Shown piece by piece: positions 6,363 to 49,747 of a DNA stretch of 64,000 bases. This DNA comes from Pseudomonas chlororaphis subsp. aurantiaca (GTDB lineage Bacteria; Pseudomonadota; Gammaproteobacteria; Pseudomonadales; Pseudomonadaceae). The first letter of the stretch is position 1. Each line of letters opens with the position of its first letter. The notes under the pieces are model-generated. The model was not told the DNA's origin. It saw only the letters and a list, made by a program, of their open reading frames with translations, and searched no databases. The stretch is taken from NCBI RefSeq assembly GCF_013466605.1, contig NZ_CP059162.1:682001-746000 (forward strand), written 5' to 3'. Position numbers and translations under genes: made by a program.

Positions 6363-8438
6363 ATGACGCGCACTCGTAAAATTCTCGCCTGGACAGTCGG
6401 TAGCCTTTTCCTGCTGCTGGCCGTGCTGGTACTGATCATCGCGTTCTTCGATTGGAACCGGATCAAGCCGCCACTCAATGCCAAAGTCTCCGAAGAACTG
6501 CATCGCCCCTTCGCCATCAACGGCAACCTGGCGGTGATCTGGCAGCGCGAGCTCGACGAAGGCGGCTGGCGGGCCTGGGTGCCGTGGCCGCACGTGGTGG
6601 CCGAAGACCTGACCCTGGGCAACCCCGAGTGGTCCAAGGCGCCGCAGATGGTCAGCCTCAAGCGCGTCGAATTGCGTATTTCACCCCTGGCATTGCTGGC
6701 GCAGCGCGTGCGCATTCCGCGTATCGACCTCACCGAGCCGAATGCCGCCCTCGAGCGCCTGGCCGACGGCCGCGCCAACTGGACTTTCCAGTTCGACCCG
6801 AAAGACCCGAACGCCGAACCCTCCAACTGGGTGGTGGACATCGGCGCCATCGGCTTCGACAAAGGGCATGTCATCCTCAATGACCAAAGCCTGAAAACCC
6901 GCCTCGACCTGTTGATCGACCCGCTGGGCAAGCCGATTCCGTTCAGCGACATCGTCGGCGACAAGGCGGCGAAGAAAGCCGAGGAGAAGGGTGCAGCTCC
7001 CCAGTCCTACGCCTTTGCCTTCAAGGCCAAGGGGCAATATCACGGCCAGGCCCTGGCCGGCTCCGGCAAGATCGGCGGCCTGCTGGCGCTGCAGGACGCG
7101 AGCAAGCCGTTCCCGCTGCAGGTGCAGGCAACGATCGGCGATACCCGCGTCGAACTGGCCGGCACCCTGACCGATCCGCTCAACCTCGGCGCGCTGGATC
7201 TGCGCATGAAGCTCGCCGGCACCAGCCTGAGCAACCTGTACCCGCTGACCGGCGTGACCCTGCCGGACTCGCCGGCCTATGCCACCGATGGCCACCTGAG
7301 CGCGCAGTTACGCGAAGCGGCCGGGGCGAAGTTCCAGTACCAAGACTTCAACGGCAAGATCGGCGACAGCGACATTCACGGCAACCTGACCTACGTCGCC
7401 AGCCAGCCGCGGCCCAAGCTGACCGGCACGCTGGTGTCCAATAAGTTGCTGTTCAGCGACCTGGCGCCGCTGATCGGTGCCGACTCCAACGCCGAGCAGA
7501 AGGCCCGTGGCGGCGACAGCAAGCAGCCGGCGGACAAGGTGCTGCCGGTGGAAGAGTTCCGCACCGAGCGCTGGCGCGACATGGACGCCGATGTCGAATT
7601 CACCGGCAAGCGCATCGTCCAAAGCGCCGATTTGCCCTTCACCGACCTGTACACCCACCTGGTGCTCGACGACGGCCACTTGAGCCTGGAGCCCCTGCGT
7701 TTCGGCGTGGCCGGCGGCAAGCTGGATGCGCAGATTCGCCTCAACGGCCAGGCTACGCCGCTGGAAGGCCGGGCCAAATTGACGGCGCGCAACTTCAAGC
7801 TCAAGCAGCTGTTCCCGACCTTCGAGTTGATGAAAACCAGTTTCGGCGAACTCAACGGCGATGCCGATCTCGCCGGGCGCGGCAACTCGGTGGCGGCCCT
7901 GCTCGGCAGCGCCAACGGCGATCTGAAGATGTTGATCAACGACGGTGCCATCAGCCGCAGCCTGATGGAAATCGCCGGGCTCAACGTCGGCAACTATGTG
8001 ATCGGCAAGATGTTTGGCGACAAGGAAGTGAAGATCAATTGCGCCGCCGCCGACTTCGGTATCAAGACCGGCCTGGCCACCACTCGCCTGTTCGTGTTCG
8101 ATACCGAGAACGCGATCGTCTACATCGACGGCACCGCGAACATGGCCAGCGAGCAGCTGGACCTGACCATCACTCCGGAATCCAAGGGCCTGCGCCTGTT
8201 CTCCCTGCGCTCGCCGCTCTATGTGCGAGGCAAGTTCATCAAGCCGGAGGCCGGGGTCGAGGCGGTGCCGCTGATGTTGCGCGGCGCCGGCATGGTGGCG
8301 CTGGGGGTGGTCGCCGGGCCGGCGGCCGGGTTGCTGGCGCTGGTGGCGCCGAGCGGCGGCGAGCCGAACCAGTGCGCGCCGCTGCTCGAGCAGATGCGTT
8401 CGGGCAAGGCGCCGGTGGCGGTCAAGCCGACACGCTAA
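6363..8438 (+). CDS. AsmA family protein
   Basis: 691 residues. One N-terminal membrane anchor (ILAWTVGSLFLLLAVLVLIIAFFDW, residues ~8-32), then a long beta-rich periplasmic region and an AsmA C-terminal domain near residues 430-640 (FGELNGDADLAGRGNS, TENAIVYIDGTANMASEQLDLTI). AsmA-like proteins resemble bridge-like lipid transfer proteins and affect outer-membrane lipid composition. Length and layout match the smaller AsmA group (about 600-700 residues) rather than TamB or YhdP. It is a single gene flanked by an REP pair downstream. Confidence 0.88.
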   Translation: MTRTRKILAWTVGSLFLLLAVLVLIIAFFDWNRIKPPLNAKVSEELHRPFAINGNLAVIWQRELDEGGWRAWVPWPHVVAEDLTLGNPEWSKAPQMVSLKRVELRISPLALLAQRVRIPRIDLTEPNAALERLADGRANWTFQFDPKDPNAEPSNWVVDIGAIGFDKGHVILNDQSLKTRLDLLIDPLGKPIPFSDIVGDKAAKKAEEKGAAPQSYAFAFKAKGQYHGQALAGSGKIGGLLALQDASKPFPLQVQATIGDTRVELAGTLTDPLNLGALDLRMKLAGTSLSNLYPLTGVTLPDSPAYATDGHLSAQLREAAGAKFQYQDFNGKIGDSDIHGNLTYVASQPRPKLTGTLVSNKLLFSDLAPLIGADSNAEQKARGGDSKQPADKVLPVEEFRTERWRDMDADVEFTGKRIVQSADLPFTDLYTHLVLDDGHLSLEPLRFGVAGGKLDAQIRLNGQATPLEGRAKLTARNFKLKQLFPTFELMKTSFGELNGDADLAGRGNSVAALLGSANGDLKMLINDGAISRSLMEIAGLNVGNYVIGKMFGDKEVKINCAAADFGIKTGLATTRLFVFDTENAIVYIDGTANMASEQLDLTITPESKGLRLFSLRSPLYVRGKFIKPEAGVEAVPLMLRGAGMVALGVVAGPAAGLLALVAPSGGEPNQCAPLLEQMRSGKAPVAVKPTR

Positions 8439-8450
8439 GGCTCGCTTTTC

Positions 8451-8550
8451 TGTAGGAGCAGCCGGTCGACGCTCGATTGCTCGCGATGAACGATAACGCG
8501 GTACTACAGATATTCCGCGGTGCCTGGATCGCGGGCAAGCCTCGCTCCTG
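8451..8550. repeat. REP-like inverted pair (GTAGGAGC family)
   Basis: TGTAGGAGCAGCCGGTCGAC at the left and GCGGGCAAGCCTCGCTCCTG at the right, in opposite orientation. Fills the space between the convergent asmA-like and LysR genes. Confidence 0.6.
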
Positions 8551-8564
8551 CCTGCCAAGGGCAA

Positions 8565-9476
8565 TCAGCCGGCGGCGAGCATCGGATGCCCGGCCGCCTG
8601 GGCCTCTTCGCGCAGCCACTGGAAAAACGCCCGTACCGGCGGATGCCGTTCACGCCCAGGCACGCACAAGGCGCTGTAGCCTGCGCCGTCGACATAGATC
8701 TGCGGGCGATACGGCACCAGCAAGCCGCTGGCCACGCTCTCCGACACCAGGATATTGCTGGCCAGCACCAGGCCCTGGCCGGCAATGGCCGCCTGCAGGG
8801 CGTAGTGTTCCTCGTCGTATTCGCGAAACACCGGGCGATCCTGCATCCAGCTTTCCTGCGCCTTGTCGCACCAGGCCTCCCAGCCATGGGCATAGAGCTT
8901 GGAGTTGTGCCAGCGCACGCTGATCAGTGTCGGCGTTTGCTCGCGGGCCTGGACCACCTGCTCCGGCGAGCCGTAGACCGCGAAGCACTCGTCGAACAGG
9001 CACAACCCATAGAGACTGGGGTAGTCGTCCAGGCTGTAGCGGATCACCAGGTCGACGCTCGCGTCCTGCTGCAGGTCGATGACCTCGCAGTTGGTGTCCA
9101 GGCGCAGGTTGATGTTCGGGTGCCGGGCATAAAAACGGCCCAGGCGCGGCACCAGCCACAACGCAGCGAAGGCCGGCGTGGTGGAGATCATCAGGTTCGC
9201 GCCGCTGCGTTGCGGACGCAGGCTGTCGACGCTCTGCGCCACTTCCAGCAAGGCGCCGTGCAGGCTGTGGAACAGGCGCTCGCCGCATTCGGTCAGGCGC
9301 ACCTGGCGTGGCAGGCGCTGGAACAGCGGCACGCCCAGCCAGCTTTCCAGGGAGCGGATCTGGTGGGAAATCGCCGTGGGCGTGACCGACAGTTCCTCGG
9401 CGGCGGCCTTGAAACTCAGGAGTCGGGACGCCGATTCGAAGGCGCGCAAAGCGGTCAGCGGCAGGTTGGCAAACAT
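8565..9476 (-). CDS. LysR family transcriptional regulator (GcvA-like)
   Basis: 303 residues. The N-terminal winged helix-turn-helix (LPLTALRAFESASRLLSFKAAAEELSV... TAISHQIRSLESWLGVPLF, residues ~5-55) is followed by a periplasmic-binding-like effector domain. The N-terminal sequence is of the GcvA/AmpR subgroup type. It is transcribed away from the azoreductase and SMR genes across a 143-base gap, the classic LysR arrangement, so control of azoR is the first hypothesis. The effector is unknown. Confidence 0.85.
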   Translation of the reverse strand: MFANLPLTALRAFESASRLLSFKAAAEELSVTPTAISHQIRSLESWLGVPLFQRLPRQVRLTECGERLFHSLHGALLEVAQSVDSLRPQRSGANLMISTTPAFAALWLVPRLGRFYARHPNINLRLDTNCEVIDLQQDASVDLVIRYSLDDYPSLYGLCLFDECFAVYGSPEQVVQAREQTPTLISVRWHNSKLYAHGWEAWCDKAQESWMQDRPVFREYDEEHYALQAAIAGQGLVLASNILVSESVASGLLVPYRPQIYVDGAGYSALCVPGRERHPPVRAFFQWLREEAQAAGHPMLAAG

Positions 9477-19312: not shown

Positions 19313-21013
19313 CTAGAACAGAAAGTAGCGCTGGGCCATCGGCAACACGTCCGCCGGCTCGCACCATAGCAGCACGCCGTCGGCCTTGACCTGATAGGTC
19401 TGCGGGTCGACCTCGATATCCGGCAGGTAGTCGTTGTGGATCAGGTCGGTCTTTTGCACGTCGCGGCAGCCCTTGACCACCGCGATGTGCTTTTTCAGCC
19501 CCAGTTGCTGCGGTACCCCGGCCTCCAGCGCAGCCTGGCTGATAAAGGTCAGGCTGGTGGCGTGCCGGCTGCCGCCGTAACTGGCGAACATCGGCCGGTA
19601 ATGCACCGGCTGCGGGGTCGGGATCGAGGCGTTGGCGTCGCCCATCAGGCTGGCGGCGATGGCCCCGCCCTTGAGGATCAGCGTCGGCTTGACCCCGAAG
19701 AACGCCGGGCGCCAGAGCACCAGGTCGGCCCATTTGCCGATTTCGATGGAGCCCACTTCGTGACTGATGCCGTGGGTGATCGCCGGGTTGATGGTGTATT
19801 TGGCGATGTAGCGCTTGACCCGGAAGTTGCTGTTGCCGGCACCGTCGCCCGGCAGCGGGCCGCGCTGGCGGTGCATCTTGTCGGCGGTCTGCCAGGTGCG
19901 GGTGATGACCTCGCCGACCCGGCCCATGGCCTGACTGTCGGAGCTGATCATCGAGAAGGCGCCCAGGTCGTGGAGGATGTCTTCGGCGGCGATGGTTTCG
20001 CGGCGGATGCGGCTTTCGGCGAAGGCCACGTCCTCGGCGATGCTCGGGTCGAGGTGGTGGCAGACCATCAACATGTCCAGATGCTCGTCGATGGTGTTGC
20101 GGGTGAACGGCCGGGTCGGGTTGGTCGAACTCGGCAGCACGTTGGGGAAACCACAGGCCTTGATGATGTCCGGTGCGTGGCCGCCGCCGGCGCCTTCGGT
20201 GTGATAGGTGTGGATGGTGCGGCCCTTTAACGCGCCGAGGGTGGTTTCGACGAAGCCCGACTCGTTGAGGGTGTCGGTATGGATCGCCACCTGCACGTCG
20301 TACTGGTCGGCGACGCTCAGGCAGTTGTCGATGCTGGCCGGGGTGGTGCCCCAGTCTTCGTGGAGCTTGAGGCCGATGGCCCCGGCCTTGACCTGTTCGA
20401 TCAAGGGCTCCGGCAGGCTGGCGTTGCCCTTGCCGGTGAAGCCGATGTTCATCGGGAACGAGTCCGCCGCCTGGAGCATGCGCGCCATGTGCCAGGGCCC
20501 CGAGGTGCAGGTGGTGGCGTTGGTGCCGGTGGCCGGCCCGGTGCCGCCGCCGATCATGGTGGTGACGCCGCTCATCAGCGCCTCTTCGATCTGCTGCGGG
20601 CAGATGAAGTGGATATGGGTGTCGATGCCGCCGGCGGTGAGGATCATGCCCTCGCCAGCGATCACTTCGGTGCTGGCGCCGACGGCGATGGTCACGTCGG
20701 GCTGGATATCCGGGTTGCCGGCCTTGCCGATGGCGGCGATGCGCCCGTCCTTGAGGCCGACGTCGGCCTTGACGATGCCCCAGTGATCGATGATCAGTGC
20801 GTTGGTGATCAGGGTGTCGACCACTTCGGCCGCCAGCAACTGGCCCTGGCCCATGCCGTCGCGGATCACCTTGCCACCGCCGAACTTCACTTCTTCGCCG
20901 TAGGTGGTGAAGTCCTTCTCGACTTCGATCCACAGCTCGGTATCGGCCAGGCGCACCTTGTCACCGACGGTGGGGCCGAACATGTCGGCGTAGGCTAGGC
21001 GGGAAATCTTCAT
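19313..21013 (-). CDS. ureC: Urease alpha subunit UreC
   Basis: 566 residues, full length. Catalytic subunit of the nickel enzyme that hydrolyses urea to ammonia and carbamate. Seen: the HIHF metal-ligand pair near residue 135, the carbamylated lysine in [14 protein letters not shown] near residue 217, [11 protein letters not shown] and [16 protein letters not shown] with further ligands, and the mobile flap [12 protein letters not shown] with its Cys-His near residue 320. GGAAGGTG precedes the start. It follows ureB after 142 bases that hold an REP element, unusual spacing for ureB-ureC. Confidence 0.97.
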
Positions 21014-48726: not shown

Positions 48727-49273
48727 GCCTGCCTTTGTGGCCGGGGCGCGCGTTTTGCAGGCTTCTGTAGGAGCGAAGCTTGCTCGCGATGGCGGTGGTG
48801 GCTGCGCTGGTGATGCTGGACGGTGTACATATCCGTTTCTGCGGTAACGGCCACTTAGGGTTCCGCCCTTACGGCGGGTCACTTTTACCAAGCGCCGTAA
48901 AAGTAACCAAAAGGGCTTGCCCCTGCGTACGGCCTTCGCTGCGCTCAGGTTCCCTCGCTCCGGTGTCCATCAGGGGGCATCGACTCCGGTCGGCTTCGCT
49001 TCGACCTCCATACGATGTCCTCGACTGCGTCGAGGGGCGCCGCGCGCCTGTCCCCTGATGAACACCTCCGCTCGGCCTCCCGATGGGGCGGGTGGATCAA
49101 AAGCCAAAGCCCGGCGCGACCTACCGGTCGGCGGCTACAGGCGTGGAGTGTCAGGGAGGCAAGTCTGGTTCTGCGGAAGGTAATGGCAACACTTTGACGG
49201 TTGCCGCTGATTTTTTGCGAAGCCATAGTTGCCCGGCCGCCGACGCATCGGCGGTCGATCTTAGCCGGTCGAA
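48727..49273. other. Non-coding stretch with repeat-like Pseudomonas sequence
   Basis: 547 bases without a convincing gene. It has a GTAGGAGC-type REP unit (48766-48789), then a block near 48840-49110 with several short inverted pieces (CCGCCCTTACGGCGG, ACTTTTACC...GTAAAAGT) that looks like a dispersed, non-coding repeat. A minus-strand frame (48945-49337) has no ribosome site and a protein composition typical of chance frames. Confidence 0.55.
48766..48789. repeat. REP unit (GTAGGAGC family)
   Basis: TGTAGGAGCGAAGCTTGCTC followed by GCGA; a single unit about 40 bases after the cobJ stop. Confidence 0.65.
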
Positions 49274-49474
49274 ATGTGGGGCTATGAACGCTTAAGCGCC
49301 ATCCATTACCATGCTGGCGCTTTTTGCTGCGCGGCATCCTTTATGGTGGCTGTGCGCGGGACACCTTCGGGTGTGCCGGGGAATGTTCATAGCTCCATCT
49401 CCGGTCGGCTAACCCTCGCACAGCTGCCTCCCATTTGTTTAGCCGCAAAGAGTGGCAGCTCTTTATGTAACTAA
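49274..49474 (+). CDS. Ash-like small leader ORF upstream of the DUF3077 gene
   Basis: 66 codons. Contains FMVAVRGTPSGVPG, which resembles the short conserved stretch of phage Ash-family proteins as I recall it. The stop codon TAA (49472-49474) overlaps the start of the next gene's ribosome site (AAGGAG), which suggests translational coupling. The frame lacks its own clear ribosome site and overlaps three RNA hairpins, so it may be an RNA element read as an ORF. An internal ATG at 49343 is an alternative start. Confidence 0.45.
   Translation: MWGYERLSAIHYHAGAFCCAASFMVAVRGTPSGVPGNVHSSISGRLTLAQLPPICLAAKSGSSLCN
49295..49325 (+). terminator. Terminator-like hairpin inside the DUF3077 leader
   Basis: AGCGCCA (49295-49301) and TGGCGCT (49315-49321) with a 13-base loop, followed by TTTTT. 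Because it lies between any upstream promoter and the DUF3077 gene, it could act as an attenuator or simply end upstream transcription. Confidence 0.65.
49345..49428 (+). ncRNA. Candidate structured leader RNA
   Basis: A 15-position helix pairs 49345-49359 (GGTGGCTGTGCGCGG) with 49414-49428 (CCTCGCACAGCTGCC), with two G-U pairs and one mismatch. Inside it is a stem ACACC/GGTGT closed by a TTCG tetraloop (49361-49374). A third hairpin AAAGAG/CTCTTT (49447-49464) follows just before the ribosome site. Strong fold potential; not assigned to a known RNA family. Confidence 0.5.
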
Positions 49475-49486
49475 GGAGCTATGACC

Positions 49487-49747
49487 ATGACGGACTTCAT
49501 CCCCCTACAAAGCAATCTCACCCCCACCCCGGTGTTCCACCTCAACCGCAACGCGCCTGCAGCCGATCTGCATGGCGGCGCGGTACAGCGCATCAAGGCC
49601 TCGCGCGATCTGATGCATAGCCTCAACTGCCTGAGCCTCAAAGGCGTGAGCGAGCGCGACCTGAGCCACTTCGTCAACGCCGCCCACCTGTTGCTGCAAG
49701 ACGGCTGCGACGCCCTGGATGCCTCGCAGTGGCGTCTGGACGCTTAA
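49487..49747 (+). CDS. DUF3077 family small protein
   Basis: 86 residues (start at the second ATG, 49487, which is 8 bases after AAGGAG; the ATG at 49481 is too close). Sequence MTDFIPLQSNLTPTPVFHLNRNAPAAD then a helical half (ASRDLMHSLNCLSLKGVSERDLSHFVNAAHLLLQDGCDALDA). DUF3077 proteins are frequent in Pseudomonas; no function is known to me. No signal peptide or membrane segment. Preceded by the structured leader. Confidence 0.8.
   Translation: MTDFIPLQSNLTPTPVFHLNRNAPAADLHGGAVQRIKASRDLMHSLNCLSLKGVSERDLSHFVNAAHLLLQDGCDALDASQWRLDA

Follow-up and report, generated by a model that had tools for sequence, protein, structure and literature searches.

The window analyzed here, a stretch of 64,000 nucleotides from Pseudomonas chlororaphis subsp. 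aurantiaca, contains on its forward strand an RNA cassette followed by a gene for a small protein of 86 amino acids. The two direct neighbors tested are ordinary chromosomal genes of the CbiG/CobJ and MarC types. The cassette has the order promoter, b1, a1, terminator hairpin, C4 antisense RNA, b2, a2, and 86-aa gene, and its features are as follows.

49201..49229, + strand, predicted sigma-70-like promoter, TTGCCG-17-CATAGT, from the sequence letters
49223..49275, + strand, c4-a1b1-like target region (RF03163, 26.2 bits, below the cut-off of 46.7)
49261..49267, + strand, target b1, TTAGCCG, 7-nt exact complement of b'
49274..49474, + strand, 66-codon Ash-like frame, judged not coding
49281..49289, + strand, target a1, GCTATGAAC, 9-nt exact complement of a'
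49294..49325, + strand, intrinsic-terminator-like hairpin with T5, between the targets and C4 (arms 49294-49301/49315-49322)
49339..49434, + strand, C4 antisense RNA (RF01695), 66 bits versus the curated cut-off of 45 (Rfam scan)
49385..49396, + strand, a' segment of C4, complementary to a1 and a2
49406..49412, + strand, b' segment of C4, CGGCTAA
49439..49445, + strand, target b2, TTAGCCG, 7-nt exact complement of b'
49457..49480, + strand, hairpin pairing the Shine-Dalgarno sequence AAGGAG at 49473-49478 (arms 49457-49465/49472-49480)
49475..49484, + strand, target a2, GGAGCTATGA, exactly complementary to a' over 10 nt and lying across the ribosome site
49487..49747, + strand, gene for the 86-aa protein (a start at 49481 is also possible)

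The central element was assigned to family RF01695 on the basis of a covariance score above the curated cut-off, and its a' and b' segments have complements of 7 to 10 nt on both sides of C4, one of them at the ribosome site. The RF03163 match upstream of C4 had an E value of 2e-4 in a 701-base search, and phage P4 itself, with 44.1 bits, likewise scores below 46.7. Both target sets and C4 would lie on one transcript. The range of the original prediction (49274 to 49747) misses the promoter and b1, and the segment that holds them (49201 to 49273) did not by itself fold clearly better than shuffled sequence (z score, -1.6; 11 of 200 shuffles as stable). Target b1 can be placed by hand in the loop of a hairpin (CGATC/GGTCG) that is absent from the minimum-free-energy fold. 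The promoter placement is shared by 81 of 97 genus cassettes under the rule TTGnnn-N16-18-nAnnnT, with the -10 box 28 to 46 nt 5' of b1, versus 4.0 of 97 when the letters were shuffled. Rfam also matched the 5' ureB sRNA (RF02514) in the window, at 20581 to 20864 on the + strand (118.7 bits).

The three RNA structures of the original prediction were all found, the last of them in a different relation to the ribosome site. The terminator-like hairpin with T5 (-13.3 kcal/mol; z score, -3.0) and the long helix with its UUCG hairpin at 49339 to 49434 (-45.8 kcal/mol; z score, -4.3), which is the C4 RNA of Rfam, were each more stable than all of 200 shuffled sequences. The third hairpin exists (56-nt segment; z score, -3.0; 2 of 200 shuffles as stable), but it contains the ribosome site rather than lying just before it. 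Among the Pseudomonas cassettes, the Shine-Dalgarno sequence was paired in the predicted fold in 63 of 89, versus 27.0 expected from shuffled upstream sequence. A terminator-like hairpin with a T run was found under a strict rule in only 30 of 97 cassettes (2 of 97 shuffled), and this part is therefore less constant. Six loci outside the genus were left out of the terminator, promoter, and Shine-Dalgarno counts, and the last of these also excludes loci 6411091 and 6118604 and six loci lacking a clear start or Shine-Dalgarno sequence.

Compensatory change was set against codon conservation, as the original prediction had proposed, and the outcome was that of an RNA. In an alignment of 40 genus C4 RNAs, hand-picked for spread out of 106 collected, 99.0% of the base-pair cells were paired, and 17 of the 27 C4 base pairs showed two-sided change (83 such cells). 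None of 500 shuffles reached these values, and sliding the partners by 1 to 3 columns left at most eight pairs with two-sided change.

The small gene had been taken for a DUF3077 gene. However, no Pfam match was obtained for its product at an E value of ≤1, so that it is not DUF3077 by Pfam, and a comparison of the wider-family profile with five DUF3077 (PF11275) proteins gave a probability of 1%. The likely start is 49487 rather than 49481, as in the P. chlororaphis PCL1601 locus L124 and most close relatives; among the 29 relatives listed, most of the closest are 86 aa long. The wider family comprises 987 database relatives, and every named relative of the window protein comes from Pseudomonas, except for one metagenomic phage record (35% identity). 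The protein is predicted to fold into two short strands and a long helical hairpin (pLDDT, 85.6); the structure model matched nothing specific, and PADLOC, like Pfam, gave no match. Several window-family relatives, including P0041, P0049, and P0054, carry the UniRef name "Short-chain dehydrogenase," although they are of ~90 aa with no Pfam domain listed, and this naming is probably an annotation error that has spread.

C4 RNAs are numerous in this genome, where 17 matches were found, 16 of them over the cut-off; a second genome, G049, searched alone, had 55 (52 over the cut-off). In a genus sample of 59 genomes, including that of the window, 54 had a match and 53 a match over the cut-off; the number per genome ranged from 0 to 54. 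Only 7 genomes of a class sample of 185, again including that of the window, had a match, and the six apart from the window's carried one to three each. The filters used for these two samples were stricter and lose weak matches. Matches occur in 54 of 59 genus genomes versus 6 of 184 other genomes of the class, and the C4 expansion appears to be a feature of the genus Pseudomonas. The original prediction had spoken of a regulatory cassette like the RNA-based control region of P4, and a complete C4-type RNA cassette that recurs is indeed what was found. It had also spoken of a repeated, undescribed element; the element is repeated, with 16 copies over the cut-off in this genome, but the RNA itself is described both in Rfam and in the parts seen of PMC2864571. 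In the open-access literature, as far as its text was accessible, C4 RNA was not found linked to DUF3077, to DUF6124, or to multiplication in Pseudomonas, and a prior description is possible; nor was C4 found among the intergenic repeat families in the accessible part of PMC2718517. On one viral contig (L300), C4 is accompanied by an integrase gene, a gene for a 52-aa protein, and primase-like and capsid genes, which, judged by gene content, points to a phage or phage satellite. We infer that the chromosomal cassettes derive from such elements.

Several kinds of genes follow the other C4 copies. As the original prediction had stated, similar leaders precede true DUF3077 genes: C4 lies no more than ~520 nt upstream of four of the seven in the genome of the window (at 879962, 4198118, 4740143, and 5750979) and precedes five of the six in G049. 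In G049, 35 of 41 DUF6124 matches had a same-strand C4 within 600 nt upstream, for which the chance expectation is ~0.0025 each. Judged by position, C4 precedes 10 of the 15 matches that the wider window family has in the genome of the window. Further followers are the 52-aa protein and Bro-N antirepressor-like proteins (two Pseudomonas cases were tested, and both match). By eye, an N-terminal TPNPP/PDPP motif is common to DUF6124 proteins, one Bro-N protein, and some window-family proteins, and cassettes look as if the leader and the first codons had been exchanged between them. Three loci in the genome of the window (G000, contig C1) are of a different kind. At 233286 to 233674, C4 and its targets are intact and the gene is split over two frames. 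At 6118604 to 6118690, C4 is present together with a b1 target and a shortened b2 match, with no DUF3077 or window-family gene behind it. At 3614785 to 3614870, a C4-like RNA (43.5 bits) has no complementary targets and is followed by what appears by eye to be a transporter gene.

The complementarity between C4 and its targets is mostly specific to the locus. In the genome of the window, cognate exact matches of at least 7 nt were found for b'-b1 in 16 of 16 loci, for b'-b2 in 15, for a'-a2 in 12, and for a'-a1 in 11, whereas non-cognate pairs reached this length in 13.8%, 7.5%, 4.2%, and 2.1%, respectively. The corresponding cognate counts in G049 were 48, 47, 36, and 25 of 55, versus 10.3%, 3.8%, 2.9%, and 2.8% of non-cognate pairs. 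The counts for the genome of the window cover 16 of its 17 loci, locus 3614785, with no match of more than 4 nt at any site, being left out. Loci 187623 and 2688820 of G049 were kept in the complementarity counts and the energy ranking and dropped from the frame, promoter, terminator, Shine-Dalgarno, code, and viral-contig counts. When duplex energies of all four sites, centered for row and column, were used for ranking, the C4 of the locus itself was the best for 15 of 16 targets in the genome of the window and for 42 of 55 in G049; another C4 ranked first at locus 233286 and at 13 of 55 loci in G049. Single sites were less discriminating (own C4 best, after centering, for 7 to 9 targets of 16 in the genome of the window and for 9 to 21 of 55 in G049), and raw energies per site were likewise weaker than the centered four-site ranking (own C4 best for 4 to 7 of the 16 targets and for 6 to 19 of the 55). 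The antisense loops are all distinct (16 of 16 and 55 of 55, respectively), while the b part alone is shared between loci (29 forms in 53).

Within the family of the window protein, b is nearly fixed, with b2 reading TTAGCCG in 31 of 33 loci, and a' and a2 change together: among the 20 of these 33 loci with distinct a-loops, a'-a2 matches of at least 7 nt were seen in 14, versus 9.7% of non-cognate pairs. Codes were also compared within and between five genomes with 116 cassettes (2 of 55 loci in G049 and 1 of 17 in the genome of the window being dropped). For unrelated genes, full four-site cross-matches were found in 0 of 3,336 within-genome pairs versus 11 of 9,178 pairs between genomes, and a looser rule gave 9 within-genome pairs versus 20.6 with permuted genome labels (P = 0.0025). 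The b sites alone did not differ within and between genomes (3.03% versus 3.16%), and shared descent may contribute to the difference seen for the full codes. The collected C4 RNAs were further compared with the targets of 31 of 33 viral-contig loci, on contigs that may include host flanks. Full matches (7 of 4,650) were no more common than non-cognate matches among the collected C4 RNAs themselves (56 of 22,350), and there is thus no sign of C4 RNAs aimed at those contigs.

C4 does not accompany every relative of the window gene. Locus L124 of P. chlororaphis PCL1601 is the same chromosomal place, with a CobJ-type neighbor and MarC that are 95% and 98% identical, respectively, and represents a natural deletion in which the promoter, the b1 hairpin, and the gene are kept and C4 and its surroundings are absent. 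In ten other genus genomes (L257 to L266; MarC identity, 81% to 95%), neither C4 nor the gene was found in the 1.5-kb flanks. Of 51 relatives of the window gene, 32 have C4 directly upstream and 19 have no C4 at an E value of ≤0.01; at these 19 loci, TTAGCC with a -10-like box is present in 18, exact TTAGCCG in 16, and the hairpin in 17. The persistence of the gene at C4-less loci indicates that it can live without its antisense RNA. Loci L124, L133, L144 to L146, L150, L151, and L155 are among those that have the b1 core and the -10-like box. Control of such copies in trans was considered and is not generally supported, a fitting C4 being found in one of three genomes tested. In PCL1601, the C4 at L232 has fits of 7 and 8 nt to the orphan L124 and comes second in the energy ranking, and no fitting C4 was found for the orphans L150 and L151 among the 15 and 23 collected, respectively. 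No second exact b1 hairpin was found in the genome of the window.

C4-type RNAs are known from phages and satellites, where they act as single immunity switches, and the c4 RNA of P1 and P7 has two target sets, a1b1/a2b2. A close likeness is to the CI immunity region of P4 (seqA-CI-seqC), which, by the P4 record, has the same RNA family, the same order of target, C4, and target, and a2 at the ribosome site. The same comparison with wider search ranges gave b1 = b2 = GTGAGAA, a1 TTCACAGG, and, at the ribosome site, a2 TTCACAGGA in P4, and a model built from the Pseudomonas C4 RNAs found the P4 RNA with 53.5 bits (E value, 2.4e-10). In P4, pairing with seqA and seqC is described to cause premature termination (PMC4825925, in the part seen). 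However, P4 has one copy, located before replication genes inside a mobile element, whereas here 16 and 52 chromosomal copies over the cut-off lie before small genes; the distance from the b1 start to C4 is 40 to 80 nt in 97 Pseudomonas cassettes and 160 nt in P4. The c4 (ant) system of P1 and P7 shares an antisense RNA that blocks translation around the ribosome site (PMC12197685, in the part seen) and differs in that the window gene is not an antirepressor gene, although Bro-N genes stand behind some other Pseudomonas copies. No C4 match was obtained in the first 48 kb of P1. In the portions seen of the report by Weinberg in 2010, c4 is listed in a table for Proteobacteria and phages, and chromosomal multiplication, codes, and DUF3077 or DUF6124 genes are not mentioned there (PMC2864571). 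The IsrK-orf45-anrP locus of Gifsy-1 also has a SeqA-like RNA before an antirepressor-like gene and RNA pairing at the ribosome site, but there, according to the accessible text, the RNA activates in trans and orf45 is translated (PMC4825925), unlike the Pseudomonas leader, which has no conserved ORF.

On these grounds, we consider it likely that the leader in the window constitutes a C4/CI-type antisense switch, complete in itself, which probably keeps the small 86-aa protein off. The parts of this switch, their complementarity, their locus-to-locus co-variation, and their recurrence are read directly from the sequences. Processing, action in trans, termination, and repression would follow the pattern of P4 and P1. 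The upstream promoter would give a single transcript carrying b1-a1, C4, and b2-a2, and C4 would be cut out of earlier transcripts. It could then act in trans on the next transcript, pairing with b2-a2, where it would mask the ribosome site, and with b1-a1, close to the terminator hairpin, which would lead to an early transcript end. With early termination and a masked ribosome site, the small protein would not be made, and the hairpin hiding the Shine-Dalgarno sequence would act as a second lock. Because the codes are mostly separate in the genomes examined, silencing by a given C4 should be confined mainly to its own gene.

It was also considered that the leader acts through translation, an Ash-like or other ORF that includes the C4 fold being coupled to the downstream gene. 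The 66-codon ORF predicted from the sequence does exist, and its end on the AAGGAG of the next gene, with which its stop codon TAA shares two bases, suits coupling. A precedent for linking leader translation to the next gene is offered by the related orf45-anrP locus of Gifsy-1, where translational coupling of orf45 to anrP is described in the part seen of PMC4825925. Against this stands the lack of a conserved frame. The length of C4 modulo 3 is distributed as 59/21/23 over 103 loci (not a multiple of 3 in 44), a stop interrupts the frame within C4 in 28 of 98 loci, the synonymous share of changed codons is 37 of 167 (22%) versus 31% expected, and the codon positions are equally conserved. 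By eye, no obvious ribosome site precedes the ATG at 49274. The proposed Ash-like protein fared no better, scoring 13.5 bits with Phage_ASH (PF10554) versus a cut-off of 26. In P4, a coding sequence at 8168 to 8584 on the minus strand, over the C4/CI RNA, matches Phage_ASH with 59.7 bits. As this strongly matching sequence overlaps a C4 RNA, the Ash resemblance is, by this comparison, one C4 RNA resembling another when read as protein, and Phage_ASH may, at least partly, be translated C4 RNA. We regard control through leader translation as very unlikely.

Two further explanations accept the C4 RNA and differ on its role, and both are judged improbable. The cassettes could be decayed remnants of the immunity regions that P4-like satellites or phages carry, persisting by chance and now functionless, which would agree with C4 on the viral contig L300, with the Bro-N antirepressor-like genes behind some copies, and with broken copies such as 6118604 (no DUF3077 or window-family gene) and 233286 (split gene). 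However, decay would not maintain the complementarity that is kept and co-varies in most copies, also for a' and a2 in one protein family, and the 987 relatives of the wider window family and the ordinary chromosomal nature of the two neighbors tested speak against it as well. Alternatively, the cassette could be a guard resembling a type I toxin-antitoxin module, with C4 as the RNA antitoxin and the protein as a toxin freed when RNA processing, Rho, or translation is disturbed, for example, by a phage. C4-type RNAs in P1 and P4 control small killing or cell-division proteins, and numerous single-gene copies, dispersed and with separate codes, are in keeping with such modules, but PADLOC and Pfam gave no match, and the gene is kept in 18 C4-less loci, a persistence not easily reconciled with a strong toxin.

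Beyond the single antisense switch of the C4/CI type, it is conceivable, as a tentative suggestion that we hold to be rather doubtful, that the copies together form a multi-code antisense system, in which tens of nearly private two-part codes are kept apart in each genome. Such a system might serve immunity against phages and satellites with the same code or might guard small proteins whose joint release follows once RNA processing or Rho is disturbed by an invader. The lack of full cross-matches within genomes and the result of the looser rule speak for this idea; the b sites alone, possible shared descent between genomes, and the viral-contig matches, no more frequent than non-cognate ones, speak against it.

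Here, a known kind of RNA is unusually multiplied on chromosomes, where its copies have mostly separate codes and stand before genes of unknown function. The 16 and 52 copies on single chromosomes are a natural set of near-orthogonal antisense regulators, and they tie DUF6124, DUF3077, and the wider window family to one control mechanism. If these genes look silent, their silence would be explained, and whether C4-type RNAs act against mobile elements becomes a testable question.
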